NCBI RefSeq assembly: GCF_000688015.1
Contig: NZ_JIAD01000001.1
Span: forward strand, 1,798,001-1,862,000
Direction: 5' to 3'
Source of the DNA: Eubacterium sp. AB3007
GTDB taxonomy: Bacteria > Bacillota > Clostridia > Peptostreptococcales > Anaerovoracaceae
DNA: 64,000 nucleotides
Positions 11,911-60,234 of this stretch are shown piece after piece. Within the stretch, counting starts at the first letter, position 1; every line of letters starts with the position of its first letter. The notes below the pieces were generated by a model, which did not search any database, was not told the DNA's origin, and saw nothing but the letters and a program-made list of their open reading frames with translations. The position numbers and the translations under genes are program-made.

Positions 11911-12378
11911 CCGCATGGCCAGAACGTGGAAAGACGAGCGCTTTCAGGCGAGCATCGTACCGGGCGGGCGCTCGGGAAGCTTTGTTTCAGGCGGGCACTT
12001 TTCCGTCATCTTGTGTGCATCAAAAAATTGACGGAATCGTACGCCTGTTTTTTTCCATGTTCTGGTAATTGTTTTCCTCGGAAAGGCGCAATATGCATCC
12101 CCGCAAGGAAAAACGAGTCCCAGTGGTACCCTTTCTCTCTCAAATGGCCCATCCCCTGGGACAACAGACGGTGTTTCGAACTCGAATCAACCGAAAATTA
12201 CCCTTTGAATTCCGTCAGAATACGAGCAAGATACTTTTGACGGAAACGGCGTCTGGCAGCATTCCCTAAACAGCAGAGCGCGAGGATTTTTTGGGTATGG
12301 CAAAACTTCTGACGCGCTTTCACATCGCGAACGAAACGAACGCCTGTATCATACGTTCGTTATATGGGCATTTGTGTC
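11911..12378. other. Non-coding stretch before the repeat array
   Basis: No gene with a ribosome binding site or recognisable family. It holds short inverted segments only. Confidence 0.5.
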
Positions 12379-13150
12379 GCGGAACTGTGTTCCGCAAAAC
12401 AGAGATTTTTCCTTTTGAGCGGAAGAAACCGCCTGTCCTGTTCCGCTAACTTAAGAAAAATCCCAGATCGCGGAACAATGTTCCGCAAACTGAAGAAAAA
12501 TCCCAGATCGCGGAACTGTGTTCCGCAAAACAGAGATTATTCCGTTTGAGCGGAAGAAATCGCCTGTCCTGTTCCGCAAACTGAAGAAAAATCCCGGATC
12601 GCGGAACAATGTTCCGCAAAACAGAGATTTTTCCGTTTGAGCGGAAGAAATCGCCTGTCCTGTTCCGCAAAACGAAGAAAAATCCCAGATCGCGGAACTG
12701 TGTTCCGCAAAACAGAGATTTTTCCGTTTGAGCGGAAGAAATCGCCTGTCCTGTTCCGCAAAACGAAGAAAAATCCCAGATCGCGGAACAATGTTCCGCA
12801 AACTGAAGAAAAATCCCGGATCGCGGAACTGTGTTCCGCAAAACAGAGATTATTCCGTTTGAGCGGAAGAAATCGCCTGTCCTGTTCCGCAAAACGAAGA
12901 AAAATCCCAGATCGCGGAACAATGTTCCGCAAAACGAAGAAAAATCCCGGATCGCGGAACTGTGTTCCGCAAAACAGAGATTTTTCCGTTTGAGCGGAAG
13001 AAACCGCCTGTCCTGTTCCGCAAACTGAAGAAAAATCCCAGATCGCGGAACTGTGTTCCGCAAAACAGAGATTTTTCCGTTTGAGCGGAAGAAACCGCCT
13101 GTCCTGTTCCGCCAAACGAAGAAAAATCCCGGATCGCGGAACGGAAGTTC
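12379..13150. repeat. Palindromic repeat array 1, alternating 91- and 40-bp units
   Basis: Ten copies of the dyad GCGGAAC-TGT/AAT-GTTCCGC start at 12379, 12470, 12510, 12601, 12692, 12783, 12823, 12914, 12954 and 13045, and a decayed eleventh lies at about 13135. Spacings are 91, 40, 91, 91, 91, 40, 91, 40, 91 and 90. The 40-bp unit is the dyad plus an AAACTGAAGAAAAATCCC tail. The 91-bp unit carries an extra 51 bases with TTCCGTTTGAGCGGAA and a lone GTTCCGC. TGT centres head the units at 12379, 12510, 12692, 12823, 12954 and 13045; AAT centres head the others. Several frames stay open across it only because the units lack stops. It is not CRISPR: there are no unique spacers and no cas genes. 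Confidence 0.9.
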
Positions 13151-13186
13151 GCCAAATCGCCCCGGGATTTTTTTGATTCTCCAACG

Positions 13187-13222
13187 CCCGGAATTCCATG
13201 CAGAATGAGAGTGGTCGATTCA
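13187..13222 (+). repeat. Lone diverged copy of the array 2 unit
   Basis: CCCGGAATTCCATGCAGAAT and the following GAGAGTGGTCGATT align without gaps to the 53-bp unit of the array at 57104-60234 (CCGGAGTTCCATGCAAAACG, then GGGAATGGGCGATC). It sits only about 35 bp from the end of array 1, linking the two repeat types. Confidence 0.5.
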
Positions 13223-13377
13223 TTCGTTTTGGCCAGTTTGAGAGGATCTGAAGGAATGCTCGGATTTTTTTCCTTGAGAACCCCGTGGAGTGGATTTCTG
13301 AAGGAATGCTCTGAGGTGTACCCCAAAAAGTAGAGTCTGCAAAGCATGGTATAATGCATGTAGATTGGAGGTACACC

Positions 13378-13683
13378 ATGTCAAGAACAAATTACAGCAA
13401 ACAGTTCAAATTGATGGTGGCAAAAGAAGCATTGCGGCCTGAAAACAAGAATCTGGAACATGTCATAGCCGACAAGTACGGAATCATGCCGTGGACTGTC
13501 ATACGATGGCGTAATCATCTTGCTGAAGTTGGTGAAGATAAAGCCTTTCGAAAAGGGTTTACCAAATCAGATAAGAGGACCGATCGGGAAAAAGAGCTTG
13601 AAAAAGAGAACGCAGAGCTTCGTGAGGAGGTCGAAATACTAAAAAAAGCAGCGGCCTTCCTTGCAAATGTAAAGCGCGATTGA
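13378..13683 (+). CDS. IS3-family transposase OrfA (copy 1)
   Basis: 101 residues. N-terminal helix-turn-helix of the IS3 OrfA/transposase_8 type (NYSKQFKLMVAKEAL, then IADKYGIMPWTVIRWRNH) and a C-terminal leucine-zipper-like helix (EKELEKENAELREEVEILKK). It binds the element ends. The ATG at 13378 follows TTGGAGGTACACC. A run of seven A residues at 13641-13647, read as A-AAA-AAA in the OrfA frame, is a -1 slippage site that would fuse OrfA to OrfB. Confidence 0.93.
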   Translation: MSRTNYSKQFKLMVAKEALRPENKNLEHVIADKYGIMPWTVIRWRNHLAEVGEDKAFRKGFTKSDKRTDREKELEKENAELREEVEILKKAAAFLANVKRD

Positions 13684-14552
13684 AATATCTTTTCATGCGT
13701 GAGCATAAACACGAGCACAGCATTGCGAGGATGGCCAGAGTACTAAAGGTGTCAGAGAGCGGATACTACAAATGGCGCAGACGAGTCGATGGGCCACTTA
13801 CGGAGAAAGAGAAAGAAGACCTTAAGATCACAAAAGAGATATACGACATATACAGAGCTTCCAGAGGATCATACGGATCAAGAAAAGTAACCGTTATCCT
13901 GAATAAAGGTCGCAAAAAACGTGTCAACCATAAACGTGTCGAGAGGATCATGCAGGAGTGCGCTCTCTTTTCCAGGACATGCAGAAGGTTTGTCTGCACG
14001 ACGGATTCAGACCATGACGAGCCAATCGCCGACAATCTTATCGACAGAGACTTCAGCGTTGATGCCCCGGATAAAAAGATGGTAAGTGATACAACAGTCA
14101 TTGCTACGGAGCAGGGAGATCTGTATGTGGCCGGAATACTGGATCTGTATGGAAGGCTTCCCGTAGGGTTGGCAATGAGCGTGCATAACGATAGATTTCT
14201 GGTAATGGATGCATTAAAAGATATGCTTCTCAGAGGCTGTGGAAGTCCGGGATGCATCATACATTCGGACAGGGGTTCGACCTACTGTTCGAAGGAATAC
14301 AGGAGAATGCTGAGCAGGCAGGGATTCATATGCAGCATGAGCCGTAAGGGAGATTGCTGGGACAATGCACCAATGGAAAGTTTCTGGGGTAAAATGAAGT
14401 CAGAATGGCTAAAGAAAAAATACAGAACAATCAACGAGGCAAAAGGTGATATATATGAATACGTGTGGCACTTTTATCCTCGTAAAAGGCCACACGAATC
14501 CATCAATTACTCAACCCCGTATGATTATTATCATAGGGGAGAAATCATATAG
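13680..14552 (+). CDS. IS3-family transposase OrfB, catalytic (copy 1)
   Basis: About 290 residues when counted from a TTG at 13680. More likely it is made as an OrfAB fusion by -1 frameshifting at 13641-13647. It holds the rve integrase core: VSDTTVIAT (D), IIHSDRGSTYCS (D) and the SRKGDCWDNAPMESFWG Glu, preceded by the HTH_21 segment RASRGSYGSRKV. It overlaps OrfA by 4 bases. Intact and probably functional. Confidence 0.93.
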   Translation: MKYLFMREHKHEHSIARMARVLKVSESGYYKWRRRVDGPLTEKEKEDLKITKEIYDIYRASRGSYGSRKVTVILNKGRKKRVNHKRVERIMQECALFSRTCRRFVCTTDSDHDEPIADNLIDRDFSVDAPDKKMVSDTTVIATEQGDLYVAGILDLYGRLPVGLAMSVHNDRFLVMDALKDMLLRGCGSPGCIIHSDRGSTYCSKEYRRMLSRQGFICSMSRKGDCWDNAPMESFWGKMKSEWLKKKYRTINEAKGDIYEYVWHFYPRKRPHESINYSTPYDYYHRGEII

Positions 14553-14756
14553 GAGTGACTCTACTTTTATGGGTACACTTCACTCTGTGGCTCAAACCCG
14601 CGAAATCCATGTGGTTTCGTCGATTTTCGAGGTCTTCTCGGTGCACAAAGCCCTAAACACCACTTCTTCCCTCTGTCACATTCCTTGAATTGAGGTGTAC
14701 CCCAAAAAGTAGAGTCTGCAAAGCATGGTATAATGCATGTAGATTGGAGGTACACC

Positions 14757-15062
14757 ATGTCAAGAACAAATTACAGCAAACAGTTCAAATTGATGGTGGC
14801 AAAAGAAGCATTGCGGCCTGAAAACAAGAATCTGGAACATGTCATAGCCGACAAGTACGGAATCATGCCGTGGACTGTCATACGATGGCGTAATCATCTT
14901 GCTGAAGTTGGTGAAGATAAAGCCTTTCGAAAAGGGTTTACCAAATCAGATAAGAGGACCGATCGGGAAAAAGAGCTTGAAAAAGAGAACGCAGAGCTTC
15001 GTGAGGAGGTCGAAATACTAAAAAAAGCAGCGGCCTTCCTTGCAAATGTAAAGCGCGATTGA
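14757..15062 (+). CDS. IS3-family transposase OrfA (copy 2)
   Basis: Identical in translation to the OrfA at 13378: 101 residues, helix-turn-helix plus leucine zipper. The same A7 slippage run lies at 15020-15026, and the same ribosome binding site precedes the ATG. Presence of two identical copies implies very recent transposition. Confidence 0.93.
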   Translation: MSRTNYSKQFKLMVAKEALRPENKNLEHVIADKYGIMPWTVIRWRNHLAEVGEDKAFRKGFTKSDKRTDREKELEKENAELREEVEILKKAAAFLANVKRD

Positions 15063-15931
15063 AATATCTTTTCATGCGTGAGCATAAACACGAGCACAGC
15101 ATTGCGAGGATGGCCAGAGTACTAAAGGTGTCAGAGAGCGGATACTACAAATGGCGCAGACGAGTCGATGGGCCACTTACGGAGAAAGAGAAAGAAGACC
15201 TTAAGATCACAAAAGAGATATACGACATATACAGAGCTTCCAGAGGATCATACGGATCAAGAAAAGTAACCGTTATCCTGAATAAAGGTCGCAAAAAACG
15301 TGTCAACCATAAACGTGTCGAGAGGATCATGCAGGAGTGCGCTCTCTTTTCCAGGACATGCAGAAGGTTTGTCTGCACGACGGATTCAGACCATGACGAG
15401 CCAATCGCCGACAATCTTATCGACAGAGACTTCAGCGTTGATGCCCCGGATAAAAAGATGGTAAGTGATACAACAGTCATTGCTACGGAGCAGGGAGATC
15501 TGTATGTGGCCGGAATACTGGATCTGTATGGAAGGCTTCCCGTAGGGTTGGCAATGAGCGTGCATAACGATAGATTTCTGGTAATGGATGCATTAAAAGA
15601 TATGCTTCTCAGAGGCTGTGGAAGTCCGGGATGCATCATACATTCGGACAGGGGTTCGACCTACTGTTCGAAGGAATACAGGAGAATGCTGAGCAGGCAG
15701 GGATTCATATGCAGCATGAGCCGTAAGGGAGATTGCTGGGACAATGCACCAATGGAAAGTTTCTGGGGTAAAATGAAGTCAGAATGGCTAAAGAAAAAAT
15801 ACAGAACAATCAACGAGGCAAAAGGTGATATATATGAATACGTGTGGCACTTTTATCCTCGTAAAAGGCCACACGAATCCATCAATTACTCAACCCCGTA
15901 TGATTATTATCATAGGGGAGAAATCATATAG
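15059..15931 (+). CDS. IS3-family transposase OrfB, catalytic (copy 2)
   Basis: Identical in translation to the OrfB at 13680, with the same DDE residues. Expected to be produced as an OrfAB fusion by -1 frameshifting. Confidence 0.93.
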   Translation: MKYLFMREHKHEHSIARMARVLKVSESGYYKWRRRVDGPLTEKEKEDLKITKEIYDIYRASRGSYGSRKVTVILNKGRKKRVNHKRVERIMQECALFSRTCRRFVCTTDSDHDEPIADNLIDRDFSVDAPDKKMVSDTTVIATEQGDLYVAGILDLYGRLPVGLAMSVHNDRFLVMDALKDMLLRGCGSPGCIIHSDRGSTYCSKEYRRMLSRQGFICSMSRKGDCWDNAPMESFWGKMKSEWLKKKYRTINEAKGDIYEYVWHFYPRKRPHESINYSTPYDYYHRGEII

Positions 15932-15961
15932 GAGTGACTCTACTTTTATGGGTACACTTCA

Positions 15962-16520
15962 AATTGATCCGGGCTCATATCGTCCAAGGAAAAGTTTTCC
16001 AAGATGTGGAAGTTTCGACGGATTAGATTCCTTCAGAATTTCGGGTTCGGGCAATCTGAAGGAACTTTTTTGAGCAGTTCCTTCAGGATCTTAATAATGG
16101 GGTTTCCCAAGGAATCAATCAGATCGGTTGTTTCGGCAGATGATGGAAATCTTAAATCTCGGCACAAAGCCATCCAGAGGTTCACGCAAAATGAGCAGTG
16201 CGAAGTCTGCCTGGGAATTGGGCGTTTGTTCTTCGGTTCCTCAAGGTGGAACTTCGCCAGCAAGGCAGCAAGGGATTTCGTCGGTTCAATGATCTCGACG
16301 AAATCATTGAATTGGAAAAATGTCAGCCAAATGACTGATGCCGATCATGCCTGGACCGGATACGATCGCTCGCATTCAGCGGAGCATCTGCCACTGAGTT
16401 CCTCGCCGTCGGTGAGGATTCTTCAGCATGGCGTAGGTGCGTTGTCAAGGGTGGCAAGCGGCTGCGTCTCGCGCTCTCTGCGCGCGAGCGCCTTACTCTC
16501 CCCGCGCGTAGCGCTCCGGT
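15962..16520. other. Non-coding stretch between IS3 copy 2 and hcp
   Basis: Apart from the palindrome at 16028-16086 I see no supportable gene. Open frames crossing it have no ribosome binding site and run into the tandem repeats beyond. Confidence 0.5.
16028..16086. repeat. Single GGAAC/GTTCC palindrome related to the arrays
   Basis: CTGAAGGAAC (16056-16065), TTTTTTGAGCA, then GTTCCTTCAG (16077-16086): perfect 10-bp arms. A further TTCCTTCAG lies at 16028-16036. The layout arm-GGAAC-T(5-6)-spacer-GTTCC-arm is the same as the array 2 unit, but the arm is CTGAA, not TGCAT. CTGAAGGAATGCTC also occurs twice at about 13247 and 13299. Confidence 0.6.
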
Positions 16521-16620
16521 TCCGCGCCGCCCTTATGTCCGCGCGGCCCTTATGTCCGCGCGGCCCTTATGTTCCGCGCCTGCCCTTATGTCCGCGCCGC
16601 CCTTATGTCCGCGCCGCCGC
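16521..16620. repeat. Tandem 17-bp GC-rich repeats at the hcp 3' end
   Basis: TCCGCGC-(C/G)-GCCCTTATG repeats at 16521, 16538, 16555, 16572 (19 bp variant), 16591 and a partial copy at 16608. The array ends 15 bases before the hcp stop codon. The hcp end itself reads GCCTTATG, as if the repeat grew from the gene end. Confidence 0.8.
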
Positions 16621-25397: not shown

Positions 25398-26282
25398 ATG
25401 GCAAAAAAGAAAGGTAAGCTGAAACGTTTCATCAAGACAACTGCAGTACTGACCGGAGGGTCTTTACTTGCGTTATCAATGGTTGCGAAAGCGAAGAAGG
25501 GCTCTTCGGTTTATGATGACCAGCCGGAAGAAAAGAACCCGATGGAAGGGAAGCGGGTTGTATTCGTTGAGAACGGATCAGAAGTGGAGAATGCTGACGG
25601 TGAAAGAGGTCATTTAGAGGCTGTAGGTGAATCTAAGTATTCTCCCTCTTTCTATGATAAGTATGTAAAACGTGGACTGGACGTAGTCCTGTCTTTTGGC
25701 GGACTAGTTGTTCTTTCGCCTGTATTAATAGGCATCTCTCTTGCCATTAAAATCGATGATCCAGGTCCGGTATTCTTCACACAGAAGAGAGTCGGACAGA
25801 ATAAACAGTACTTTAAGTTACATAAATTTAGAAGCATGAAGATGTCAACGCCACATGATGTCCCGACTCATATGCTGGAGAATCCAGACCAGTATATAAC
25901 TAGGGTTGGGAAGTTTTTACGGGCGCATAGTCTGGATGAATTGCCGCAGATCTGGGATATCTTTATCGGGAACATGAGTGTGATTGGCCCTAGGCCAGCG
26001 CTTTGGAATCAGGATGTATTAACCGCCGAAAGGGATAAGTATGGTGCAAACGATGTCAAACCGGGTCTCACTGGTTGGGCGCAAATTAACGGGCGAGACG
26101 AATTGGAGATTCCTGATAAAGCGAAACTGGACCAGGAGTATACGAAGAATCTTGGCTTGAAGATGGATATCATCTGTTTCCTAGGTTCTCTTCATGTATT
26201 TACAAATGATGATAGTGTAGTTGAAGGTGGTACTGGGGAAATGAAGAAGCATACAACGCAGGAGAATGAGAATGAAGAATAG
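25398..26282 (+). CDS. Polyprenyl-phosphate sugar-1-phosphate transferase (initiating sugar transferase)
   Basis: 294 residues. After a Lys-rich start with one membrane segment (about 13-30), the catalytic bacterial sugar transferase domain begins at about residue 90: YVKRGLDVVLSFGGLVVLSP (re-entrant membrane helix), DDPGPVFFTQKRVGQN, KLHKFRSM, then LDELPQIWDIFIGNMSVIGP and PGLTGWAQINGRD. It moves a sugar-1-phosphate from a UDP-sugar to undecaprenyl phosphate, the first step in repeat-unit assembly on the inner face of the membrane. The C-terminus is acidic. The gene starts the AT-rich part of the locus and overlaps the next gene by 11 bases. Confidence 0.93.
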   Translation: MAKKKGKLKRFIKTTAVLTGGSLLALSMVAKAKKGSSVYDDQPEEKNPMEGKRVVFVENGSEVENADGERGHLEAVGESKYSPSFYDKYVKRGLDVVLSFGGLVVLSPVLIGISLAIKIDDPGPVFFTQKRVGQNKQYFKLHKFRSMKMSTPHDVPTHMLENPDQYITRVGKFLRAHSLDELPQIWDIFIGNMSVIGPRPALWNQDVLTAERDKYGANDVKPGLTGWAQINGRDELEIPDKAKLDQEYTKNLGLKMDIICFLGSLHVFTNDDSVVEGGTGEMKKHTTQENENEE

Positions 26283-27099
26283 ATATTCAGTACTGATGTC
26301 GGTATATAAAAATGATTCTCCTGAATTTCTGAGGTTAGCTCTAAAAAGCATTTATGAGGATCAAACACGAAAGCCGGATGAGATAGTAGTTGTTTTTGAT
26401 GGGCCTCTTACTTCAGCTTCGTTAGATGTGTTGGACCGATTTAGATTAGGTAAAGAGGACGTTGTCAGATACTATCCACAGGAAATTAACAGAGGATTGG
26501 GGGAAGCTCTACGTATTGGAGCGGAAAAATGCACAGGGGATTATATTCTTCGAATGGATTCAGATGATATAAGCGATCCAAAACGATTCGAGAAGCAGAT
26601 CTCATATGTGGAAGAACATCCGGAAATTGATGTTCTTGGGACTGATATAGCAGAGTTTAATCAGGCACCAAATGAGCCCAATATGAGAGTTAGGGTTTGC
26701 CCAGCACAGCATGTAGACATAGTTCAGATGGGAAAGAAAAGAAATCCCATGAATCATGTTACAGTTTGCATTAAGAAATCAGCCCTAGAAAAGTGTGGTG
26801 GATACAAAACATTGCTTTTGCTTGAAGACTATTACCTGTGGTTAAATATGATTGCTGCAGGGTGTAAGCTGGAAAACATTAATGAATCACTAGTCTATGT
26901 CCGTGTGGGAAATGGATTCGATTCTAAGAGGGGATCCAAAGAGCGTATTACAGGGTGGAAGGTCCTGCAAGATTTTATGTTGGAAAACGATATGATTTCA
27001 AAAAAAGAAGCAAGAATGAATATGTTATATATTAATGTTTTCGTTAGAACTCCGGGGTGGATAAAGAAACTATTATACGAGAAGTTTTTGAGGAAGTAA
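26272..27099 (+). CDS. Glycosyltransferase family 2
   Basis: 275 residues with a GT-A fold start: YSVLMSVYKNDSPEFLRLAL, then DEIVVVFDGP and ILRMDSDDISDPKRFEKQ, where the DSDD holds the DxD metal motif. It resembles amylovoran/AmsE-like transferases. It would add one sugar to the lipid-linked repeat unit. GGAG seven bases before the ATG at 26272 favours this start over 26266. It overlaps the preceding transferase gene and is followed after 4 bases by the pyruvyl transferase, so all are co-transcribed. Donor and acceptor cannot be told. Confidence 0.9.
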   Translation: MKNRYSVLMSVYKNDSPEFLRLALKSIYEDQTRKPDEIVVVFDGPLTSASLDVLDRFRLGKEDVVRYYPQEINRGLGEALRIGAEKCTGDYILRMDSDDISDPKRFEKQISYVEEHPEIDVLGTDIAEFNQAPNEPNMRVRVCPAQHVDIVQMGKKRNPMNHVTVCIKKSALEKCGGYKTLLLLEDYYLWLNMIAAGCKLENINESLVYVRVGNGFDSKRGSKERITGWKVLQDFMLENDMISKKEARMNMLYINVFVRTPGWIKKLLYEKFLRK

Positions 27100-27103
27100 A
27101 CAA

Positions 27104-28222
27104 ATGAAGAAAGCAGGGATAATTACACATTATGATGTTCATAATCACGGAGCTCATCTGCAATTATATGCATTAAAGCAGTGTCTAAAAGAATTGGGAT
27201 ATGAAGCAAGAGCTCTTAGATTCCAAAAGAACTACGATTTTATGGGTGGTGCTGAAATCGGAAGAAAATATAATATATCAATTCGCTCAATCCCCATCTA
27301 TATTCAATACGCGGTTTCGAATGGTGTAGATAGGACAGTCTATAATATCAAGAAAAGAAAGACATTAGCAGAATTCCGAAAAACACAAGGTCTAGTGGGA
27401 GATTATTATTCTGAGGCCAAAGGGTTAGATGCAGTTGTAATTGGCAGTGATGAAATTTTCAGTGTCGAAGCTGGACCAAATCCTTGGTACTACGGGATTG
27501 GGGTGCCCTGTAAATATGAAATATCGTACGCAGCAAGTTTTGGACCAACAACACTACAACTAATAGATAAGCATAACGTTGGAGGAATGGTTGAGGCTGG
27601 GTTGAAGAATCTGAAGCATATTGCAGTTAGAGACAGAAATTCTGCGGAATTAGTGGAGCATTACACTGGTGAACGACCAATAATAGTCTGTGATCCTGTG
27701 CTTCTTTATGATTTCCCCAAACAATTAAAAGGCGAGGTGCTGGATTCTTTTAAGAATGAGCACCCTGAAAAGTACTGTATTGTTTATTCATATGATTACA
27801 ATATGAATGACAATCAAACTGTAGAGGCAATCAAGGATTATGCCCGAAAGCGGGGACTAAAGATTTATAGTGTTGGTTATTATCATAGATGGTGTGACAG
27901 AAATATTAATGTTGATCCATTAGATATAATTAAATGGTTTTCTGGCGCTGAAATAGTGTTTACGGATACGTTTCATGGCTCTGTTATTTCTTTAGAGACT
28001 GGGACACAGTTCATATCTCAAATTCGTGCAAATGCGAACAAATTAGGTTATCTTTTAGAACAGTATGGCGTTTCTGAAAGAATAGTCGAGAATTATGAGA
28101 ACATAGAAAGAATAGTTACAGAACCGATAGATTATAGCCAAGTAAATATAACGATTTCTAAAATTAGAAAGGAATCATATCTTTACTTAAAAAGGGTATT
28201 AGATAGTAATGATTGTGGTTGA
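27104..28222 (+). CDS. Polysaccharide pyruvyl transferase family protein
   Basis: 372 residues matching PF04230: AGIITHYDVHNHGAHLQLYA at the start (usual N-x-GxxLQxxA), VVIGSDEIFSVEAGPN, VRDRNSAELVEHYTGERP, CDPVLLY, then FTDTFHGSVISL at the end (usual TxRxHGxxxA). The family adds a ketal-linked pyruvate from phosphoenolpyruvate to a sugar, giving the polymer negative charge. It overlaps the next gene by 14 bases. The pairing with an F420-dehydrogenase-like gene recurs in many exopolysaccharide loci. Confidence 0.9.
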   Translation: MKKAGIITHYDVHNHGAHLQLYALKQCLKELGYEARALRFQKNYDFMGGAEIGRKYNISIRSIPIYIQYAVSNGVDRTVYNIKKRKTLAEFRKTQGLVGDYYSEAKGLDAVVIGSDEIFSVEAGPNPWYYGIGVPCKYEISYAASFGPTTLQLIDKHNVGGMVEAGLKNLKHIAVRDRNSAELVEHYTGERPIIVCDPVLLYDFPKQLKGEVLDSFKNEHPEKYCIVYSYDYNMNDNQTVEAIKDYARKRGLKIYSVGYYHRWCDRNINVDPLDIIKWFSGAEIVFTDTFHGSVISLETGTQFISQIRANANKLGYLLEQYGVSERIVENYENIERIVTEPIDYSQVNITISKIRKESYLYLKRVLDSNDCG

Positions 28223-29384
28223 TAATAATTGTACAGCATGCGGCGCATGTGCTGTAGTATGTCCAAAACACTGTGTATCACTTATTGCAAACAATAAAGG
28301 TTTTTTGTATCCTCATATTAATACAGATATTTGTCTTAATTGCAATGTGTGTGATGATATCTGTCATCATAATAAACATATTGAGAATTATTTTGAGCCT
28401 AAAGTATTTGCTGTAAAATCAAATAATGATACCTTTTTAAAAAGATCTACGAGTGGAGGTGCTTTCTCAGCATTAGCAGAGTATGTGATAAATAGCGGAG
28501 GCGTAGTTTATGGCTGCGCATATGTCGATCACTTAAAAGCAAAGCATATTAGGATTGAAAGTTTAGGAGAACTTCATCGACTTAATGGATCAAAATATGT
28601 TCAAAGTGATTGTTCTAATTCGTTTGAGGAAGTGAGGAGAGATCTGATTTCGGATAGACTTGTTCTCTTTTCGGGTACACCTTGCCAAGTATCCTCCTTA
28701 AGAAGCTATCTTAAAGAAGACGTAGAGAATTTAATAACTGTAGATATAGTGTGCCATGGGGTATCCTCGCAAGCATTCTTTGATAAATATATAGATTGGT
28801 ATGAAGACAAGAATAATATTGATGTAAGTGATTATGATTTCCGATCCAAACAAAATGCAAAATGGAGTCTCGCCGGGATTTGCTTTGGAGTGGACAGACG
28901 TACAAGACGAATAATCAGGAAAAAAGTCTTTTATTATAATGAATTCTACTATTTTTATTTTCTGAAAGGATTGGCATACAGAGAGAGTTGCTATCAATGT
29001 AGATATGCAAACATGCTCAGACCCGGTGATATTACTTTAGGTGATATGTGGGGGGCCGAAACTCTTGGTTTGAATTATGATGTTTCAGAGGGATGTTCAC
29101 TTTTTATTGCTAATAATGAGAAAGGGTTGCGTCTACTAGACTACATTGACGTTGATGTAAAAAGGATTAGCTTAGAACAAGCAATTAAACTTAACGAGCA
29201 ACTTACTAAGCCAAGCAGTATTCCTGAAGAATATAAGGATATTATTGATTTCATTTCGGTTACTGACGCAGAAACTATTGACAGAGATTTTCGAAAAAGA
29301 TTTAGAAAGGAGCGCATGATTGGTTTTTTAAAGTATCACATCCCATACAGGCTAAAGAATCGACTTAAAAGAATTATCAAATAA
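28209..29384 (+). CDS. Coenzyme F420 hydrogenase/dehydrogenase beta subunit-like ferredoxin protein
   Basis: 391 residues. The N-terminus has two [4Fe-4S] motifs, CTACGACAVVCP (about 9-20) and CLNCNVCDDIC, followed by the FrhB-type domain (RSTSGGAFSALAEY, SGTPCQVSSLRSYL, VDIVCHGVSS). Further Cys in CYQCRYANMLRPGDITLGD probably bind another cluster. In methanogens FrhB binds F420 and FAD. In bacterial polysaccharide loci the homologues sit beside pyruvyl transferases and are thought to reduce or modify sugars, without firm proof. It overlaps the pyruvyl transferase frame by 14 bases, implying tight coupling. Confidence 0.9.
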   Translation: MIVVDNNCTACGACAVVCPKHCVSLIANNKGFLYPHINTDICLNCNVCDDICHHNKHIENYFEPKVFAVKSNNDTFLKRSTSGGAFSALAEYVINSGGVVYGCAYVDHLKAKHIRIESLGELHRLNGSKYVQSDCSNSFEEVRRDLISDRLVLFSGTPCQVSSLRSYLKEDVENLITVDIVCHGVSSQAFFDKYIDWYEDKNNIDVSDYDFRSKQNAKWSLAGICFGVDRRTRRIIRKKVFYYNEFYYFYFLKGLAYRESCYQCRYANMLRPGDITLGDMWGAETLGLNYDVSEGCSLFIANNEKGLRLLDYIDVDVKRISLEQAIKLNEQLTKPSSIPEEYKDIIDFISVTDAETIDRDFRKRFRKERMIGFLKYHIPYRLKNRLKRIIK

Positions 29385-29666
29385 TGAGGTGATTTGGTTT
29401 AAGCAGACAGTAAACCAATACTGCAATCTATTTTCATAGGGATTGCTCTAATAGCGATCCTTAATGGTACTTAATCTAATCTAGCGAAACATGTTATTCT
29501 GCGAATCCACTAGTTGAGGGTGAGGTCAGTGTTGTTAGGGGTCATTTAGAGGATGATCCCGAAATAGTTGAATCTACTGTGCTTGTGCTCGAGAGTAATG
29601 AATCGCAGAGATAATAGAAAGGAAAAGTGTTGCTATTATCTTCTGAAAGCAACATACGAGTTACAT
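29385..29666 (+). other. Decayed or non-coding gap inside the polysaccharide operon
   Basis: Two short open stretches lack starts and ribosome binding sites: one ends SIFIGIALIAILNGT (about 29400-29473), the other reads VVRGHLEDDPEIVESTVLVL (about 29510-29613). The second recalls the N-terminal region of the sugar transferase at 25398 (ERGHLEAVGES). It may be a remnant of another such gene. Confidence 0.35.
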
Positions 29667-30626
29667 ATGATAGAGATATCAATAATCATCCCCTGTTACA
29701 ATTGTGCTGACTGGATAGATCGGTGTATTTATGCCTTAGAAAGACAAACATACAAAAAATTTGAAGTGATTTGCATAGATGACTGTTCAAACGACAATAC
29801 TTTCGAAAAATTGAATGAAATAAGAAAGCATATTTCATTTGAACTTCGTGTTTTGCAAAACAATGAAAATTGTGGTCCAGCAAAATCTAGAAACTATGGT
29901 ATTAGTCTAGCAAAAGGTAGGTATTTGGCCTTTTGCGATTCTGATGACTGGTATGAGGACAATTATGTTGAAGAGATGCATCGGGCGTTATTACGGGACG
30001 GTGCTGATTTAGTAATGTGTGAATACAGAAAAGTATACGAGTCGAGTAATAGAGTGGATGATATGCATTATCTAAAGAATTTTTCTGGAAGCAGAGATGA
30101 TTTAATAGCATATAGTAAAGCGGCAATGTGGCTAATTATGTATAAGAGGGAGTTAACACTCGATTTGGAAGTCCCGGATTTACGAAATGGGGAAGATATT
30201 GCATATGTTCCATGTATTGAATCAAGAGCCCAAAAAATAACTGTTGTTAAAAAGATTCTTTACAATTATCTTATGAGAAAGGGGTCAACTTCAAAGACAC
30301 CTTCCGTAAGTGTATATAAATCATTGCTTACAGCTTATGAATTTATCAAGAACAATTACATTAATGATGATCTTTCTGTCAAAGAGTATTTAGGTATAAA
30401 AACTGTAATGTATGGTGCTGTACTGAATGCATGCAAGGCAGGCGAAAAGGGAAAAGAGATACGCGTAATAGTTGATGAGTTTGAAAAAGATTATCCAAAT
30501 TGGGTTAATAATAAATACATGTATTTATTCAATAAAAAGAAGCAACTGTTTTTGAGTTTTGTCAAGCATAGGAGGATTAGCCTTTGTAAAGCTTACTCAA
30601 CTCTACATCAGTTAGTTTCCGTATGA
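29667..30626 (+). CDS. Glycosyltransferase family 2
   Basis: 319 residues from the ATG at 29667. It has the GT2 opening ISIIIPCYNCADWIDRCIYA, then QTYKKFEVICIDDCSNDNT and NCGPAKSRNYGISLAKGRYL, and FCDSDDWYEDNYV with the DxD. The frame is open upstream to 29568, but extra residues are Cys/Arg-rich and unlike the family, so the shorter start is chosen. Its ribosome binding site is weak. It acts on the cytosolic face of the membrane, extending the lipid-linked oligosaccharide. Specificity unknown. Confidence 0.88.
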   Translation: MIEISIIIPCYNCADWIDRCIYALERQTYKKFEVICIDDCSNDNTFEKLNEIRKHISFELRVLQNNENCGPAKSRNYGISLAKGRYLAFCDSDDWYEDNYVEEMHRALLRDGADLVMCEYRKVYESSNRVDDMHYLKNFSGSRDDLIAYSKAAMWLIMYKRELTLDLEVPDLRNGEDIAYVPCIESRAQKITVVKKILYNYLMRKGSTSKTPSVSVYKSLLTAYEFIKNNYINDDLSVKEYLGIKTVMYGAVLNACKAGEKGKEIRVIVDEFEKDYPNWVNNKYMYLFNKKKQLFLSFVKHRRISLCKAYSTLHQLVSV

Positions 30627-30637
30627 GGTAATTAAGT

Positions 30638-31174
30638 ATGGATTTGGGATATCAAATAGCAAAATTAAAAGCGAAAATGATTGGAAGAAAAGGATACGCA
30701 TATGGTGAAATCGTTAACCGTTATTTCAGGAAGAAAGGTGTTGAGATTGGAGAGCGATGCTTAATTTATTCAAATATTATTACAAATGAACCGTACCTAA
30801 TAACAATCAAAAACGATGTTGTTGTAAGTACAGATGTATGCTTTGTCACACATGATTATAGCATCCACAGTGTATGCCCAACGATAGGAAATTTGTTTGG
30901 GAATATAACGATTGGGAACAATTGTTTTATTGGGGAGCGTGCTATATTGATGTATGGTGTTGAGTTGGCTGACAATATTATTGTAGCAGCAGGGAGCGTT
31001 GTAGCAAACTCATTCTCTGAAAGTAATATTATCATTGGAGGAAATCCAGCGAAAAAAATCGGTACTTGGGATAAATTTCGGATTACTGGACAAAAATATG
31101 GATATGGATATCCGATAACAAGAGAGTATGCAGATAATCATCCGGAGAACATGGTTCATCGAAAGGTACGATAG
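30638..31174 (+). CDS. Acyltransferase with left-handed beta-helix (hexapeptide repeats)
   Basis: 178 residues. Hexapeptide-type rungs are visible: IGERCLIYSNII, VVVSTDVCFVTHDYSI (with the catalytic-type His), ITIGNNCFIGERAILMYGV, LADNIIVAAGSVVANSF, then the closing IIIGGNPAKKIG. This is the maltose/virginiamycin acetyltransferase class, which adds O-acetyl groups to sugars with acetyl-CoA. It starts 12 bases after the preceding glycosyltransferase (GAGG upstream). Likely decorates the exopolysaccharide. Confidence 0.9.
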   Translation: MDLGYQIAKLKAKMIGRKGYAYGEIVNRYFRKKGVEIGERCLIYSNIITNEPYLITIKNDVVVSTDVCFVTHDYSIHSVCPTIGNLFGNITIGNNCFIGERAILMYGVELADNIIVAAGSVVANSFSESNIIIGGNPAKKIGTWDKFRITGQKYGYGYPITREYADNHPENMVHRKVR

Positions 31175-31191
31175 ATGATGGGGATCAAGAA

Positions 31192-32559
31192 ATGGTAAAT
31201 AGTGGGCACACAATTAAACAATCGCTACCCAATATCATGAAATGGATTCAGGTTTATTTGGTAGGCACAATACTTCTATATTTATTTGGCCCTATACATT
31301 ATGTAAAGTATAATCTTGCATTGGTGTTAGTTTTGCTTGCAATATATCAGTTATTTTTGTGGGCAGGGTACAATAAAGGTGTTAATAAGACAATAAAGGG
31401 TTTAAATTATAATGATTACAGGTCGTCTGAGGATTTCAATCGGCGTGATCAGAGATTGATTATGACATTAGGGGTAATTGGCATCTTTTTCGATTTTTTG
31501 ATGATGTATAGGATGGCTAATACTTGGAATATCGCTACTATATATCAGAAAATTATTAATGGTCTGACTTCTCCGGCGAGTCAATATGAAGAGTACTATT
31601 TGGATCACTTAGCTGGAAATCTTGGTGGAGGGGCTTTTTTTTCTCTTTTAATTACAATAGGTACCCCCTTTGCGATTGCTGCAATAATATTAGGTATCTA
31701 CTATTTTTCTAATCTTTCAATTACAGGAAAGGCTATTATTATTCTATGCTCATTATTTCACCTGGGAACACAATTCATTACGGGAGCTAATGAGGGGATT
31801 TTTGATTTTGCGATTTATGTTGCAGTCTCTATATTTATGAAAAATACAAATATGGGGTTTAGAGAAAAGAAAAACATTATAGAATTTGGATGGAAGAAAA
31901 TAACTGTGTTTCTTCTTGCAATAATAGCGGCGTTTTTAGCTTTATCTTTTTTTACAAATAATATCATGGGAAGAACTCAAGGGAATTTTGCTTTTTCAAC
32001 ATTGGGTGAGAATAAATATGATCCAAATGCAGGAATAAACCAATATGTTCCTGAAACTGTTTTTGTTACGTTTGCGTATTTAAGTGTATATTTGTGTGAA
32101 GGGTATTATGGTTTTTCGTTAACAACACGTCTACCTTGGGTCCCGACATTCGGAACTGGTTTTTCTTCTTTTGTAAGAAATAATTTGGGGGATTTGATTG
32201 GAATTGATTTATTTCAATACACATACCAATATAGAATCGAAAGTATTGCGACTTGGGGGAAATTGAAGAATTTCCATACAGCATATACCTTTTGGGCAAA
32301 TGATTTATCCCATATCGGTGTCCCAATAGCTATGTTTTTAATGGGACTCATATTGGGAAAGTACTATATAAAATGCGTATACCAATGTCAAAAAACGGCA
32401 ATAATAATGATGCCACTTATGATAACGATGATGTTCTATCTTCCTGCAAATAATAAAATCTTCGTACAACCATCAACTTTTCTTCTTTTTTTCTTCATAG
32501 TTATTTATGATGCATTAAAAGGAAAAGTACGTTTCAAATTTGGGAGCAAGACAATATGA
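31192..32559 (+). CDS. Wzy-like oligosaccharide repeat-unit polymerase
   Basis: 455 residues with about ten hydrophobic segments spread over the whole length (from YLVGTILLYLFGPI near residue 22 to FFIVIYDALKG at the end). A large outer loop at about 230-360 contains AFSTLGENKYDPNAGINQY and the polar GFSSFVRNNLGD. No enzyme domain besides the membrane segments. Topology, position between transferases and flippase, and AT-rich sequence fit the polymerase, which joins repeat units on the outer face. Sequence conservation in this family is poor, so the call leans on context. The stop overlaps the next start (ATGA). Confidence 0.72.
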   Translation: MVNSGHTIKQSLPNIMKWIQVYLVGTILLYLFGPIHYVKYNLALVLVLLAIYQLFLWAGYNKGVNKTIKGLNYNDYRSSEDFNRRDQRLIMTLGVIGIFFDFLMMYRMANTWNIATIYQKIINGLTSPASQYEEYYLDHLAGNLGGGAFFSLLITIGTPFAIAAIILGIYYFSNLSITGKAIIILCSLFHLGTQFITGANEGIFDFAIYVAVSIFMKNTNMGFREKKNIIEFGWKKITVFLLAIIAAFLALSFFTNNIMGRTQGNFAFSTLGENKYDPNAGINQYVPETVFVTFAYLSVYLCEGYYGFSLTTRLPWVPTFGTGFSSFVRNNLGDLIGIDLFQYTYQYRIESIATWGKLKNFHTAYTFWANDLSHIGVPIAMFLMGLILGKYYIKCVYQCQKTAIIMMPLMITMMFYLPANNKIFVQPSTFLLFFFIVIYDALKGKVRFKFGSKTI

Positions 32560-33785: not shown

Positions 33786-33825
33786 TGCTTTCCATGTCAT
33801 CTATTGATCTTCATTGGGTAATAAT

Positions 33826-35256: not shown

Positions 35257-35266
35257 AGGAACAAAA

Positions 35267-36304: not shown

Positions 36305-36321
36305 TAAGAAAGGAGAAATAG

Positions 36322-37176
36322 ATGAAATTCTTAGTACTCGGCTGTAATGGTATGGCTGGTCATCTGATTAGCCTTTATTTGAAGGAACGAGGTCATGAGG
36401 TCCTTGGCTTTGCCCTTTCCAAGTCTATGCTTGTTGATTCTGTGGTAGGAGATGCACAGGATGCGACATTCATGAAGGAACTTGTAGGAATCAATAAGTT
36501 CGATACTGTTATAAATTGCATCGGACTTCTCAATAAATCATGTGATGAACATCAAGAAAGTGCCGTATATCTAAACTCATATTTTCCTCACCAATTGGCG
36601 AAACTCACAGAAGGCACGCATACACAGGTTATCCATATGAGCACAGACTGTGTGTTCAGTGGTAAAAGAGGTCAGTACAAAGAGAACGACTTCAAGGATG
36701 GTATGACATTCTATGATCGTACAAAAGCCCTAGGTGAAATTGAGAATGATAAAGACTTGACCATGCGGCAGTCCATTGTGGGCCCGGACATAAATCAGAA
36801 TGGCATTGGTCTGATGAACTGGTTTATGCAACAGCACGGAGAAGTAACAGGTTATACTAGTGCAATATGGACAGGGCAGACTACTCTTCAGCTCGCCAAA
36901 ACCATGGAAGCGGCAGCGAAAGAAAGAGTATATGGACTTTATAATATGGTTCCAGATACAACCATATCTAAGCATGATTTGATTAGTTTATTCAATAAAT
37001 ATCTTCGTAATGGGAAGATTAAAATCATTCCCGTTGATAAGATGGCGGCTGATAAAAGTTTGAAACGTACACGTTGGGCTTTCAACTACAAGATTCCAGA
37101 TTATGAGAGTATGATAGCGGAGCTGGCAGATTGGATGAAGGAACATAAAGCACTGTATCCACATTATAATTTGTGA
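36322..37176 (+). CDS. fnlB: FnlB/CapF-type (RmlD-like) NAD(P)H sugar-nucleotide reductase
   Basis: 284 residues: FLVLGCNGMAGHLISLYLKE (NAD(P) motif, Gly-rich), VINCIGLLNKSCDEHQES, HMSTDCVFSGKRGQY, FYDRTKALGEIEND with the Tyr/Lys pair (YDRTK), and the RmlD-like end. It is the short reductase type of WbjC/FnlB that reduces the 4-keto group made by FnlA. It lacks the cupin domain some CapF proteins carry. AAGGAGAAATAG is the ribosome binding site. Assignment to the L-FucNAc pathway rests on order between FnlA-like and epimerase genes. Confidence 0.85.
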   Translation: MKFLVLGCNGMAGHLISLYLKERGHEVLGFALSKSMLVDSVVGDAQDATFMKELVGINKFDTVINCIGLLNKSCDEHQESAVYLNSYFPHQLAKLTEGTHTQVIHMSTDCVFSGKRGQYKENDFKDGMTFYDRTKALGEIENDKDLTMRQSIVGPDINQNGIGLMNWFMQQHGEVTGYTSAIWTGQTTLQLAKTMEAAAKERVYGLYNMVPDTTISKHDLISLFNKYLRNGKIKIIPVDKMAADKSLKRTRWAFNYKIPDYESMIAELADWMKEHKALYPHYNL

Positions 37177-57103: not shown

Positions 57104-57571
57104 GGAGTTCCATGCAAAACGGGGGATGGGCGATCTGCATGGAACTTTTTGCGTCCGGAGTTCCATGCAAATCGGGATATGGGCGATCTGCATGGAACTT
57201 TTTGCGTCCGGAGTTCCATGCAAAACGGGGAATGGGCGATCTGCATGGAACTTTTTGCGTCCGGAGTTCCATGCAAAACGGGGGAATGGCCGATCTGCAT
57301 GGAACTTTCCGCGTCCGGAGTTCCATGCAAAACGGGATATGGGCGATCTGCATGGAATTTTTTGCGTCCGGAGTTCCATGCAAAACGGGGGAATGGCCGA
57401 TCTGCATGGAACTTTTTGCGTCCGGAGTTCCATGCAAAACGGGGGTAAGGGCGAACTGCATGGAACTTTTTGCGTCCGGAGTTCCATGCAAAACGGGAAA
57501 TGGGCGATCTGCATGGAATTTTCCACATCCGGAGTTCCATGCAAAACGGGGAATGGCTGATCTGCATGGAA
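57104..57571. repeat. Palindromic repeat array 2, left part
   Basis: Nine units starting GGAGTTCCATGCA at 57104, 57157, 57210, 57263, 57317, 57370, 57424, 57478 and 57531, period 53-54. Each unit is a hairpin: GTTCCATGCA, a 19-20-base loop of the type AAACGGGGAATGGGCGATC, TGCATGGAAC, then TTTTTGCGTCCG. Loops and tails vary slightly (ATATGG, GGTAAGG; CCGCG or CCACG tails). The ninth unit is cut by the IS21 type C insertion after TGGAA. Confidence 0.95.
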
Positions 57572-57664
57572 TGTAAATGGGAAAATAAAAATGTACAAAA
57601 AAGGGAAAATAAAAATGTACAGTTTTAGCTGAGATGGTAGTCTGAATCCATGGAGGGTAGATTC

Positions 57665-58864
57665 ATGGATAACAGACTGCTGACTCAACTGGAGATATTG
57701 AAATTGAGCGGAGAGAAACCGAATTTCTCAAAGCTCGGAAGAGAATATGGGATCGATCGCAGGACGGTAAAAAGGTATTATGACGGCTATGCCGGGAAAC
57801 CTGCGACAAGAGATAAGCCAAGCAAACTTGATCCGTACGAAGCTGTCATTCGCCAGAAGATGGCGATACGCGGAGCAACAATAAAAGCAGTGTATGAGTT
57901 TCTGTATTGCAAGTATGGTGAATCGATAGGCACATATTCAAACTTCCGTAAATATGTGGTAAGCCGCGGGATAACACCCAAGAAGAAAGTACGCGGTCAT
58001 CCACGCTATGAAACAGCCCCCGGCCTACAGGCACAGGTGGACTGGAAAGAAGATCTTCAAATAACAAATTGCCTGGGTGAAGTATTCACAATACAGGTAT
58101 TTGACTACAAGCTCGGCTATTCTAGATACTGCCGTTTCGTTTACAAGAGAACAAGAACTCAACAGGAAGTGTTCGACAGCCTCATACAATGCTTCATGGC
58201 AACAGGCGGGGTTCCGAGGGAGATCTTATTCGACAATATGAGAACGATCGTCGACATCACTGAAGACGGACGAAGGATCAACGCTAAAGCGAAGCAGTTT
58301 GCGAAAGACTTTGGATTCAAGATCAAACTTGCAAAGCCGAGGCACAGCTATACCAAGGGAAAGGTCGAGACCATAAACAAGTTCATGGAATGGCTTCGGG
58401 TCTACGAAGGTGAATTTGAGACCGAAGATGACCTGACCCGGATAATGCTTAGCATAAATGATCGGGTAAATACCGAAGTGTGTCAGGCAACGAATATGCC
58501 GCCATATCTCCTGTTCCAGAAGGAAAAGGACATGCTGCAGCCGCTGCCATCGCCATATGTGATCGACTCATACCGAGAGTACGACAGAAGAACCAAGGTG
58601 CAGAAGGATTCGCTCATCGTATTCAGGAAGAGCAGATATTCCGTGCCGCCTGAATACATTGGCAAGACTGTGCATCTCAAAGCTTTCGGTGATGATCTGA
58701 AGATCTATTTCGAGAACAGATGCATCGCACAGCACAAAATCTCAGACAAGCGGATCAACTATGACCGGACACATTATCTGGAGCTTTTGCGGCCTTTGGT
58801 CAGGAGCGACGATCTGGAATCATTTGCCGAACAGAATCTGAGGCAGTTTGACAGTTTCCTGTAG
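57665..58864 (+). CDS. istA: IS21-family transposase IstA (type C)
   Basis: 399 residues from the Met at 57665 (GGAGGGTAGATTC upstream; the ATG at 57650 is rejected). Helix-turn-helix NFSKLGREYGIDRRTVKRYY. Catalytic core QAQVDWKEDLQI (D), EILFDNMRTIVD (D), KGKVETINKFMEW (E). C-terminal barrel SRYSVPPEYIG-like. It would bind the GTACA repeats at the ends. Distinct in sequence from types A and B. Confidence 0.95.
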   Translation: MDNRLLTQLEILKLSGEKPNFSKLGREYGIDRRTVKRYYDGYAGKPATRDKPSKLDPYEAVIRQKMAIRGATIKAVYEFLYCKYGESIGTYSNFRKYVVSRGITPKKKVRGHPRYETAPGLQAQVDWKEDLQITNCLGEVFTIQVFDYKLGYSRYCRFVYKRTRTQQEVFDSLIQCFMATGGVPREILFDNMRTIVDITEDGRRINAKAKQFAKDFGFKIKLAKPRHSYTKGKVETINKFMEWLRVYEGEFETEDDLTRIMLSINDRVNTEVCQATNMPPYLLFQKEKDMLQPLPSPYVIDSYREYDRRTKVQKDSLIVFRKSRYSVPPEYIGKTVHLKAFGDDLKIYFENRCIAQHKISDKRINYDRTHYLELLRPLVRSDDLESFAEQNLRQFDSFL

Positions 58865-58876
58865 ACAGGAGGAAAC

Positions 58877-59641
58877 ATGGCAAGCTACGCAAAACTGGTT
58901 AACGGGCTCGAAGAATTGAATCTACCCAAAATTCAGGAGAACCTGGGAACATATACTGAAATGGTGAATCAGGGAGATATGAGTTTCACTCAGGCGCTTG
59001 AAGAACTCGTCTCCATAGAGTGCAGTTACAAGAAAGAGAGGCTCAACCACGCAAATATACACAAGGCGAACTTCCCATTCCTCAAAACTCTGGACGACTT
59101 CGACTTCACTTTCCAGCCGGGACTGAATAAGGCCGAGATACAGGAGTTTGCCAATCTGGGGTTTGTGGAGCGGATGGAGAACATCGTGTTTGTGGGCTCT
59201 AGCGGAGTTGGTAAGACACACCTTGCTACATCAGTAGGCATCGAATGTGCAAAGGCGCGATATTCAACGTACTTCATCACATTCGAGAATCTGATCCTGC
59301 AGCTCAAGAAAGCGCTAAATGAAAACCGGCTCGAACAACGCTTGAAGTTCTATGCCGGTTACAGGGTGCTCATCATAGACGAACTTGGATATATGCCGAT
59401 CGATAATGATGCGTCCAACCTTTTCTTCCAGCTCATTGCGAGAAGATACGAAAGGAACAGCACGATCGTCACCACAAATATGGCATTCTCAAAGTGGACT
59501 GAGGTATTTGGATCAGCAACACTGGCCAACGCGGTGCTCGACAGGCTGCTTCACCACTCATCCGTTATATCCATCAAAGGGCCGTCTTACAGGCTGAAGG
59601 ACAAGCGCGCATTCCTTGATAGCCAGCCTGAAAAAAGCTGA
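58877..59641 (+). CDS. istB: IS21-family helper ATPase IstB (type C)
   Basis: 254 residues. Walker A GSSGVGKTHLATS, Walker B VLIIDELGYMPID, sensor TTNMAFSKW, Arg region VLDRLLHHSSV. ACAGGAGGAAAC precedes the ATG, 12 bases after the istA stop. Intact. Confidence 0.95.
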   Translation: MASYAKLVNGLEELNLPKIQENLGTYTEMVNQGDMSFTQALEELVSIECSYKKERLNHANIHKANFPFLKTLDDFDFTFQPGLNKAEIQEFANLGFVERMENIVFVGSSGVGKTHLATSVGIECAKARYSTYFITFENLILQLKKALNENRLEQRLKFYAGYRVLIIDELGYMPIDNDASNLFFQLIARRYERNSTIVTTNMAFSKWTEVFGSATLANAVLDRLLHHSSVISIKGPSYRLKDKRAFLDSQPEKS

Positions 59642-59695
59642 AAATTGTACAAAATTATTTTCCACTTTTTGTACAAAATTAAATTGACATTTACA

Positions 59696-60234
59696 TGGAA
59701 CTTTTTGCGTCCGGAGTTCCATGCAAAACGGGGGTAAGGGTGAACTGCATGGAACTTTTTGTGTCTGGAGTTCCATGCAAAACGGGGAATGGGCGATCTG
59801 CATGGAACTTTTTGCGTCCGGAGTTCCATGCAAAACGGGGAATGGGCGATCTGCATGGAACTTTTTGCGTCCGGAGTTCCATGCAAAACGGGATATGGGC
59901 GATCTGCATGGAATTTTCCACGTCCGGAGTTCCATGCAAATCGGGATATGGGCGATCTGCATGGAACTTTTTGCGTCCGGAGTTCCATGCAAAACGGGGG
60001 AATGGGCGATCTGCATGGAACTTTTTGCGTCCGGAGTTCCATGCAAAACGGGGAATGGGCGATCTGCATGGAATTTTCCGCGTCCGGAGTTCCATGCAAA
60101 ACGGGGAATGGCTGATCTGCATGGAACTTTCCGCGTCCGGAGTTCCATGCAAAACGGGGAATGGCTGATCTGCATGGAATTTTCCACGTCCGGAGTTCCA
60201 TGCAAAACGGGGGTAAGGGCGATCTGCATGGAAC
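59696..60234. repeat. Palindromic repeat array 2, right part
   Basis: Continuation of the array after the IS21: units start GGAG (or TGGAG) at 59713, 59767, 59820, 59873, 59926, 59979, 60033, 60086, 60139 and 60192. The last hairpin closes at TGCATGGAAC (60225-60234). Together with the left part there are 19 unit starts over about 1 kb of original array. No spacer diversity, so not a CRISPR. Confidence 0.95.

Follow-up and report, generated by a model that had tools for sequence, protein, structure and literature searches.

A mosaic family of TTCC/GGAA palindromic modules, dispersed and in tandem arrays, in the Eubacterium sp. AB3007 genome

A 64,000-nucleotide stretch of the Eubacterium sp. 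AB3007 genome (hereafter the window; positions 1,798,001 to 1,862,000 of contig NZ_JIAD01000001.1, in a single-contig genome of 2,301,752 bases) carries two tandem arrays of short palindromic units and, between them, a further palindrome. A preliminary description of the window had placed all three in one family with a constant core and exchangeable arms. Genome-wide counts, motifs in register and an arm-blind sample bear out the common family and its constant TTCC/GGAA part. The arrays and the palindrome are read here as members of one non-coding, mosaic palindromic family that, as far as the searched genomes show, is restricted to this species, and whose seeding is attributed to non-autonomous transposition; this reading as a whole is given a probability of roughly 0.57. 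The best-supported account is of a family that was seeded at many sites, that multiplies locally by way of its arms and in which insertion sequences (IS) land.

The unit of the family is a module of ~35-40 bp with the structure TTCC-arm-loop-arm'-GGAA, in which the loop is ~20 nt long (17-23). The outer TTCC-to-GGAA span varies little within an arm type, being 35 bp in GC modules, 36 in GTCA, 37 in TTCA and TTGG, and 37-38 in ATGC modules. GC modules measure 37 bp when the outer G-C pair is counted, and where GC arrays are regular a 3-bp linker alternates with one of 14 bp (37+3+37+14 = 91). ATGC modules, of 39-40 bp, are joined by linkers of ~14 bp, and TTCA modules occur single, paired or in threes with linkers of ~12-13 bp. 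The units first described for array 1 (GTTCCGC-AAAAC...GCGGAAC) and array 2 (GTTCCATGC-AAAAC...GCATGGAAC) are present as claimed, and the decayed array-2 unit reported close to array 1 is real (local score 38, p 0.001, none of 1000 shuffles scoring as high). The palindrome CTGAAGGAAC-TTTTTTGAGCA-GTTCCTTCAG is likewise exact, but it does not stand alone as had been thought, since it forms the junction after a full TTCA module. Two arm types come in addition to GC, ATGC and TTCA, namely GTCA (12001-12036 and 12210-12245) and TTGG, the latter split by the second IS3 copy of the window (Table 1).

Counts over the whole genome, judged against reversed-pattern controls, show that GGAAC-centred palindromes are commoner, by a factor of two to three, than chance predicts. 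The pattern GTTCCN{15,45}GGAAC occurs 250 times (control 84) and GGAACN{0,30}GTTCC 201 times (control 90), while three motifs in register give 64+70 matches against 4+9. The excess sharpens for the individual types. The GC junction is found 43 times (control 1), with further GC arrays at 1481 and 1949 kb, and the ATGC arm type 40 times (control 0), in five arrays. A pattern for GTCA or TTCA arms gives 19 matches (control 0), of which the 11 GTCA modules all span 36 and the 8 TTCA modules all span 37. Although the fifth position of either arm was unconstrained in this pattern, it is complementary in all 19 modules of this genome, compared with 3 of the 29 matches, of mixed spans, in 24 other genomes.

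An arm-blind sample of 400 kb (20 evenly spaced stretches of 20 kb) agrees with these counts. Among TTCC..GGAA pairs of span 35-38 (n=92), 16 extend inward by at least 3 matched pairs, although these come from five loci and are therefore not 16 independent events; five other span classes hold 51-65 pairs each, with 1-2 extending inward. In three relatives, sampled over 200 kb each, the corresponding figures are 1/34, 1/48 and 0/37. Together with the genome-wide counts, this sample rules out chance palindromes as the origin of the modules.

The arm types are less different than they look. When GTCA, TTCA and ATGC arms are aligned by their ends they read TTCC-N-T-(G)-CA, so that they differ by only one matched pair and one extra G-C pair. 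The distinct outer arms of the preliminary description are thus variable, as it held, to a smaller degree than it supposed; they are also complementary, but no swap of whole arms between types was seen, so that their exchangeability is not borne out. Variation is unevenly spread within a module: in the 19 units of array 2 one arm has a single form, the other has two, distinct only at the outermost base, and the loops have 11. Single arm mismatches occur in the module at 13269-13307 and in that at L055:2117-2153. Read forward, the loops of GC modules resemble ATGC loops, with p at or below 0.057 in 5 of 6 cases, and TTCA loops resemble them in 3 of 8 (p below 0.03); a MAFFT alignment of the GC and ATGC module families came out misaligned.

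GTCA modules bound a larger element of ~250 bp. Besides the copy in the window (1810 kb), homologous copies lie at 222, 1155 and 2021 kb, and the four are 66-85% identical (BLAST). The copies at 1155 and 1757 kb adjoin 5S and 23S rRNA genes and differ by exactly 209 bp, the difference having its ends in the repeated right arm TTGACGGAAACGG, as would be expected if recombination or slippage had taken place between arms. Farther out, another indel, of ~120 bp, separates the same two loci.

Outside this genome the modules are sparse. The three-motif pattern gives a sum of 151 matches in 40 relatives (control 100), against 134 in the own genome (control 13), and the places in the relatives are scattered among the matches listed. 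Of 81 genomes searched, 25 including this one contain the GTCA/TTCA pattern, the other 24 with one or two matches each; of 296 genomes in the family, 6 contain the ATGC hairpin, again including this one, and the other five have it once each. In the genome_contigs collection, which may not include the own species, the ATGC hairpin occurs in three stretches, each time as a lone hairpin with an unrelated loop; in viral contigs the GC junction occurs in two near-identical stretches that carry no array. Such sparse and scattered matches indicate that the family is private to this lineage among the genomes examined. A literature search on GGAAC/GTTCC palindromic intergenic repeats in Lachnospiraceae found none described, which is no wider claim of absence from print. 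As to the relatives of the window itself, the best 120 relatives of one of its proteins are mostly Lachnospiraceae where named, at ~85% identity.

In the mechanism favoured here, short linkers join modules to form both dispersed elements and tandem arrays. Seeding would occur by non-autonomous transposition acting on the hairpin, with an HUH/Y1-type enzyme as the likeliest mover; arrays would expand and shrink through recombination or slippage between arms; and the arms would be kept matched because the hairpin, or the inverted half-site, is recognised. The self-spreading repeat that had been suggested as one explanation is plausible in the light of the dispersed homologous elements, whereas spreading was not seen in action.

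Several observations weigh against this reading or limit it, and a number of them concern the counts themselves. An excess of hairpins is general: spans of 36-41 stand at 2.4x expectation in this genome and spans of 26-31 at 2.7x, and for spans of 36-41 the relatives G007, G002 and G012 reach 1.7x, 1.65x and 1.2x and the more distant G025 1.5x. In the 400-kb sample hairpins of 34-42 bp number 112 (37-49 in five shuffles) and those with a TTCC foot 22 (0-2 in shuffles), but the 22 stem from 8 loci, with 9 from one array. Hairpins with recurrent arms and differing loops, whose count grows with sample size, number 76 in the 400 kb here, compared with 9, 8 and 2 in 200-kb samples of G007, G012 and G002; G025, at 28% GC, holds 130 such hairpins in 200 kb, with AT-rich arms and scattered spans. 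G004 has 16 three-motif matches (control 0), the most of any relative. The change at pair 5 in the alignment of 29 GTCA, TTCA and ATGC modules (A-T 10, T-A 10, G-C 9, none broken) amounts to two or three events, the counts being of sequences.

Other points on the same side concern the GTCA type and the mover. GTCA loops show no consistent likeness to the other loops, so only arm, span and position link this type to the family. The invariant columns in the four-copy alignment of the ~250-bp element (arms 31/34, end-hairpin loops 11/40, other columns 73/204) overstate the conservation of the arms, because exact arm pairs were used to retrieve the copies, at both ends for two of them and at a single end for the other two. 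The parts free of this selection are the opposite ends of the latter two copies (one mismatch each) and the inner TTCCT/AGGAA hairpin, which was used in no search and is invariant at 10/10 in the four copies. In the consensus fold of the element, the end modules pair with one another and not each with itself. For module elements, neither a target-site duplication nor an empty site was seen; since no genome searched shares the family there is no empty site to compare, and only the internal 209-bp difference was observed. Finally, a mover whose ends match was not found, the REP-associated tyrosine transposase (RAYT) gene at 1111 kb having GTGTCAAA palindromes of its own.

Repetitive extragenic palindromic (REP) families, the best-described bacterial palindromic repeats, have a defining tag and a link to a tyrosine transposase. 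The TTCC modules lie outside genes as well, judged from open reading frames (ORFs) and the Pfam matches of flanking frames without a gene caller.

Like REPs and bacterial interspersed mosaic elements (BIMEs), they are short, present in many copies, arranged in mosaic clusters and hit by IS elements, the landing of which in REPs is known (PMC1525189). According to PMC3733652 and PMC3686654, a REP carries GT(A/G)G or CGTC as its terminal tag, mostly has a very short loop and is associated with a RAYT. By contrast, the TTCC modules end in TTCC/GGAA; GTAG/GTGG and CGTC are both absent from the foot, and their loops of ~17-23 nt exceed those given for most REPs (PMC3733652). The modules are mostly head to tail, whereas BIME units alternate in orientation according to PMC2817692; exceptions are the L012 pair, which differ in orientation, and some ambiguous modules of L018. 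No cognate RAYT is flanked by TTCC modules. As in RAYT/TIRYT-associated palindromes, a RAYT with flanking palindromes is present in the same genome, but the palindrome concerned (GTGTGTCAAAGGGGACGG..) belongs to another family. The default maximum loop of a REP-finding tool is 11 nt (PMC12306157), with which it would not report the TTCC modules.

In the REPINs of Pseudomonas fluorescens SBW25 conserved ends lie at a fixed distance; what is preserved of the spacer is its length and pairing rather than its sequence, and compensatory changes occur (PMC3116915). Conserved inverted ends, fixed spacing, a spacer of free sequence and arrays with two alternating spacings are common to both (PMC3116915); the ends of the TTCC modules, however, are not REPs, the size is about half and no RAYT with these ends was seen. 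BOX elements of Streptococcus pneumoniae are also built of modules, with a repeatable middle module, and have expanded in one species (PMC3049150). The likeness in modular intergenic build, repeatable middle module and one-species expansion holds at the level of description (PMC3049150), while no boxA-boxB-boxC order was established for the TTCC modules, which come in several arm types within this one genome. The family thus appears to work like REP/BIME, REPIN and BOX mosaics and yet fits none of these by tag, loop or mover. Failure of the tag, orientation and RAYT tests, together with the longer loop, sets it apart, by the descriptions used, as a variant of mosaic palindromic repeats.

Several arm variants of one hairpin, of fixed size and with matched arms, whose loop is long and free and for which no mover is visible, offer a natural test of how palindromes are kept up, for which protein recognition, RNA pairing and template-switch repair are the candidates. 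Under the first of these, the modules would be bipartite protein-binding sites, with inverted half-sites about three helical turns apart and repeated in phase, for one protein or several related ones that organise the origin-proximal chromosome, different arms being different specificities. The arms and the spacing are fixed while loops vary, and in the GC arrays the half-site centres are, by our own arithmetic, ~30, 10, 30 and 21 bp apart (sum 91). Position also speaks for such a role. GC skew flips near 0.465 Mb and at ~1.68 Mb, the latter, with a DnaA-like frame and DnaA boxes, being taken as the origin; 12 of the 14 array loci (GC and ATGC) are within 35% of the half-genome from the origin (Kolmogorov-Smirnov, KS, p 0.0002). 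For GTCA and TTCA loci together the figure is 9 of 14 (binomial p 0.024, KS p 0.062), and for TTCA loci alone 6 of 7 (KS p 0.0048). GTCA loci alone are not clustered at the origin (KS p 0.53), which speaks against the proposal, and since the origin was tested after the clustering had been noticed the result is a lead and not a test. IS3 copies and the RAYT-associated REPs show no clustering at the origin (6 and 4 loci only), and the lagging-strand bias of the arrays, 9 against 4 in a hand count that left out one mixed locus, is not significant. If seen in further strains, origin clustering of tandem arrays would tie repeat expansion to replication.

A binding protein did not emerge from the neighbourhood. 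The preliminary description had envisaged a family of related binding proteins, and had proposed to test whether a transposase or DNA-binding gene co-occurs with the repeats; neither was found in 20 flanking frames of 12 loci, IS copies aside. Fourteen of these frames have a Pfam match (one below the curated cut-off) and six have none; only ATPase folds recur, and a PucR-type and a sigma-54-type regulator appear once each. The lack of a recurrent candidate protein beside the arrays, and of the sites in the related genomes searched, which would be odd for a core chromosome function, leave the binding-site explanation unlikely.

Matched arms may alternatively be a product of mutation, in which template switching rewrites one arm from the other and slippage lengthens the arrays, with neither function nor mover. 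Homogenisation of inverted-repeat arms by template switching has been described, and inversion of the loop is named as a mark of the process (both in PMC8604942); the units here are, by eye, alike inside an array and diverged between arrays. Such a process leaves unexplained the constant TTCC/GGAA end, the fixed span of each arm type at scattered loci and the homologous 250-bp elements, and is considered quite unlikely.

It is improbable that the modules act as RNA, as transcribed hairpins with a terminating, attenuating or stabilising effect on transcripts nearby. Four single modules fold better than their own shuffles as single DNA strands (z -2.1 to -4.7), which fits hairpin recognition and yet follows from their being palindromes, as which they were picked. 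The consensus fold of the 250-bp element has two-sided changes in 12 of 56 predicted pairs (4 sequences), but these changes lie outside the module arms. Terminator-like sites number 5 in array 1 (3.9 expected) and 1 in array 2 (3.2 expected), promoter-like sites 3 (4.8 expected) and 6 (4.1 expected), and, as far as ORF lists allow in place of a systematic count, the arrays sit in varied gene orientations. No Rfam match reaches the gathering score in the window, and in 11 loci there are three sub-threshold matches, all outside the arrays. Intrinsic terminators and known Rfam RNAs were rejected or left without support as identities for the modules, terminator-like and promoter-like sites not being clearly enriched at the arrays and the window having no Rfam match. 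A CRISPR array was dismissed as well, since the linkers between modules are themselves repeated and are not unique spacers; integron attC sites were rejected or left without support by a by-eye comparison with the core-site consensus only.

No more probable is a broader proposal, in which paired half-sites with co-changing arms, private to the lineage and concentrated at the origin, would be read by diversifying, so far undescribed DNA-binding or hairpin-processing proteins, giving several parallel repeat-protein specificities on one geometry.

Movement of the TTCC modules in trans by the RAYT of this genome, or by its short IS200-like transposase at 1413 kb, is highly improbable: both Y1_Tnp genes are present, and the second-best relative of the RAYT (P0002) is named REP element-mobilizing transposase by its source, but the RAYT-flanking palindromes differ from TTCC modules, for which the RAYT was rejected as mover, and other genomes of the order with Y1_Tnp genes have 0-2 matches of the GTCA/TTCA pattern. 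Some Y1_Tnp gene occurs in 9 of the 25 genomes searched, this one included. The RAYT itself (245 aa; L031:2424-3161, minus strand, chromosome ~1111 kb) is flanked by GTGTGTCAAAGGGGACGGTTCTTTTTGACACA palindromes that recur elsewhere in the genome, and the flanking GTGTCAAA palindromes form a separate repeat family. An origin of the modules as miniature inverted-repeat transposable elements of the resident IS3 or IS21 was also rejected, the IS ends TGAGGTGTACCCC and TGTAAATGGG being unlike the arms by eye.

The role of the modules as landing sites is seen in the IS copies of the genome. All three IS21 copies lie within an array or ~100 bp from one. Of seven IS3 copies, one is in a GC array and two are at the array 1 locus, where copy 2 cuts a TTGG-type module and copy 1 lies 4 bp from a TTCA-like module. 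Judged by eye, two others sit in another palindromic repeat with TTTTTGTAG arms (1287 and 2122 kb), the copy at 2162 kb adjoins a GGCGGCGCC repeat and that at 61 kb has no such repeat.

Table 1. Repeat modules, arrays and IS elements in the window (window coordinates).
Feature	Position	Strand	Remarks
GTCA-type element, ~250 bp	11997..12249	+	modules TTCCGTCA..TGACGGAA at 12001-12036 and 12210-12245
Inner hairpin of the GTCA-type element	12073-12111		TTTCCT..AGGAAA
Stretch common to the flank of the TTCA-type element at 2127 kb	12293..12368	.	BLAST, ~87% identical over 76 bp
Array 1	12377..13142	-	37-bp modules with GC arms, head to tail for the most part; block lengths 91 and 40 bp
Decayed array-2 unit	13185..13219	+	linker, left arm and part of loop; right arm lost
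TTCA-like module	13269..13307	+	one arm mismatch (TTTCCTTGA..TGAAGGAAT)
IS3-family copy 1	13312..14582	+	two ORFs (HTH_Tnp_1, rve); 3-bp duplication CTC
Left part of TTGG-type module	14681..14690	+	TTCCTTGAAT; cut by IS3 copy 2
IS3-family copy 2	14691..15961	+	identical to copy 1; 3-bp duplication AAT
Right part of the cut TTGG-type module	15965..15991	+	..CCAAGGAA
TTCA-type module	16027..16065	-	
Palindrome	16056..16086	.	GGAAC-linker-GTTCC junction, module then half module
Array 2, first part	57104..57571	-	ATGC-arm modules of 39-40 bp, linkers ~14 bp, period 53-54
IS21-family element	57572..59695	+	IstA-like and IstB-like frames; in right arm of a module; duplication TGGAA
Array 2, second part	59694..60234	-	first two bases overlap the IS21 end in repeat-finder coordinates

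Other palindromic repeats are present in the same genome. A second family has TTATGGCA/TGCCATAA arms, hairpins of 38-59 bp and a foot unrelated to TTCC (L039:14785-14930, L041:2804-2946 and L041:6593-6663). A third, with clustered TTTTTGTAG/CTACAAAAA arms, is the one in which two IS3 copies have landed (L016:3784-3990, L041:19602-19840, L060:771-1040 and L061:860-1000). At L040:1576-1703 adjoining hairpins have common loop letters (ATATACATGG, then AGGCTTCC) and different matched arms, TTTGGGGA and TTAGGGAAG.

The window has some further features of its own. A 17-bp short tandem repeat (TCCGCGCCGCCCTTATG) lies at 16519-16618, between the palindrome cluster and a prismane-family gene. Two inverted copies of ~1.13 kb, 98.8% identical, are found at 41702-42832 and 46491-47621. 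G+C content is low (0.34-0.40, genome ~0.54) at 26000-38000, which also holds a run of plus-strand ORFs, and at 61126-63987 a single frame of 953 aa joins alpha-amylase and phosphoglucomutase domains.

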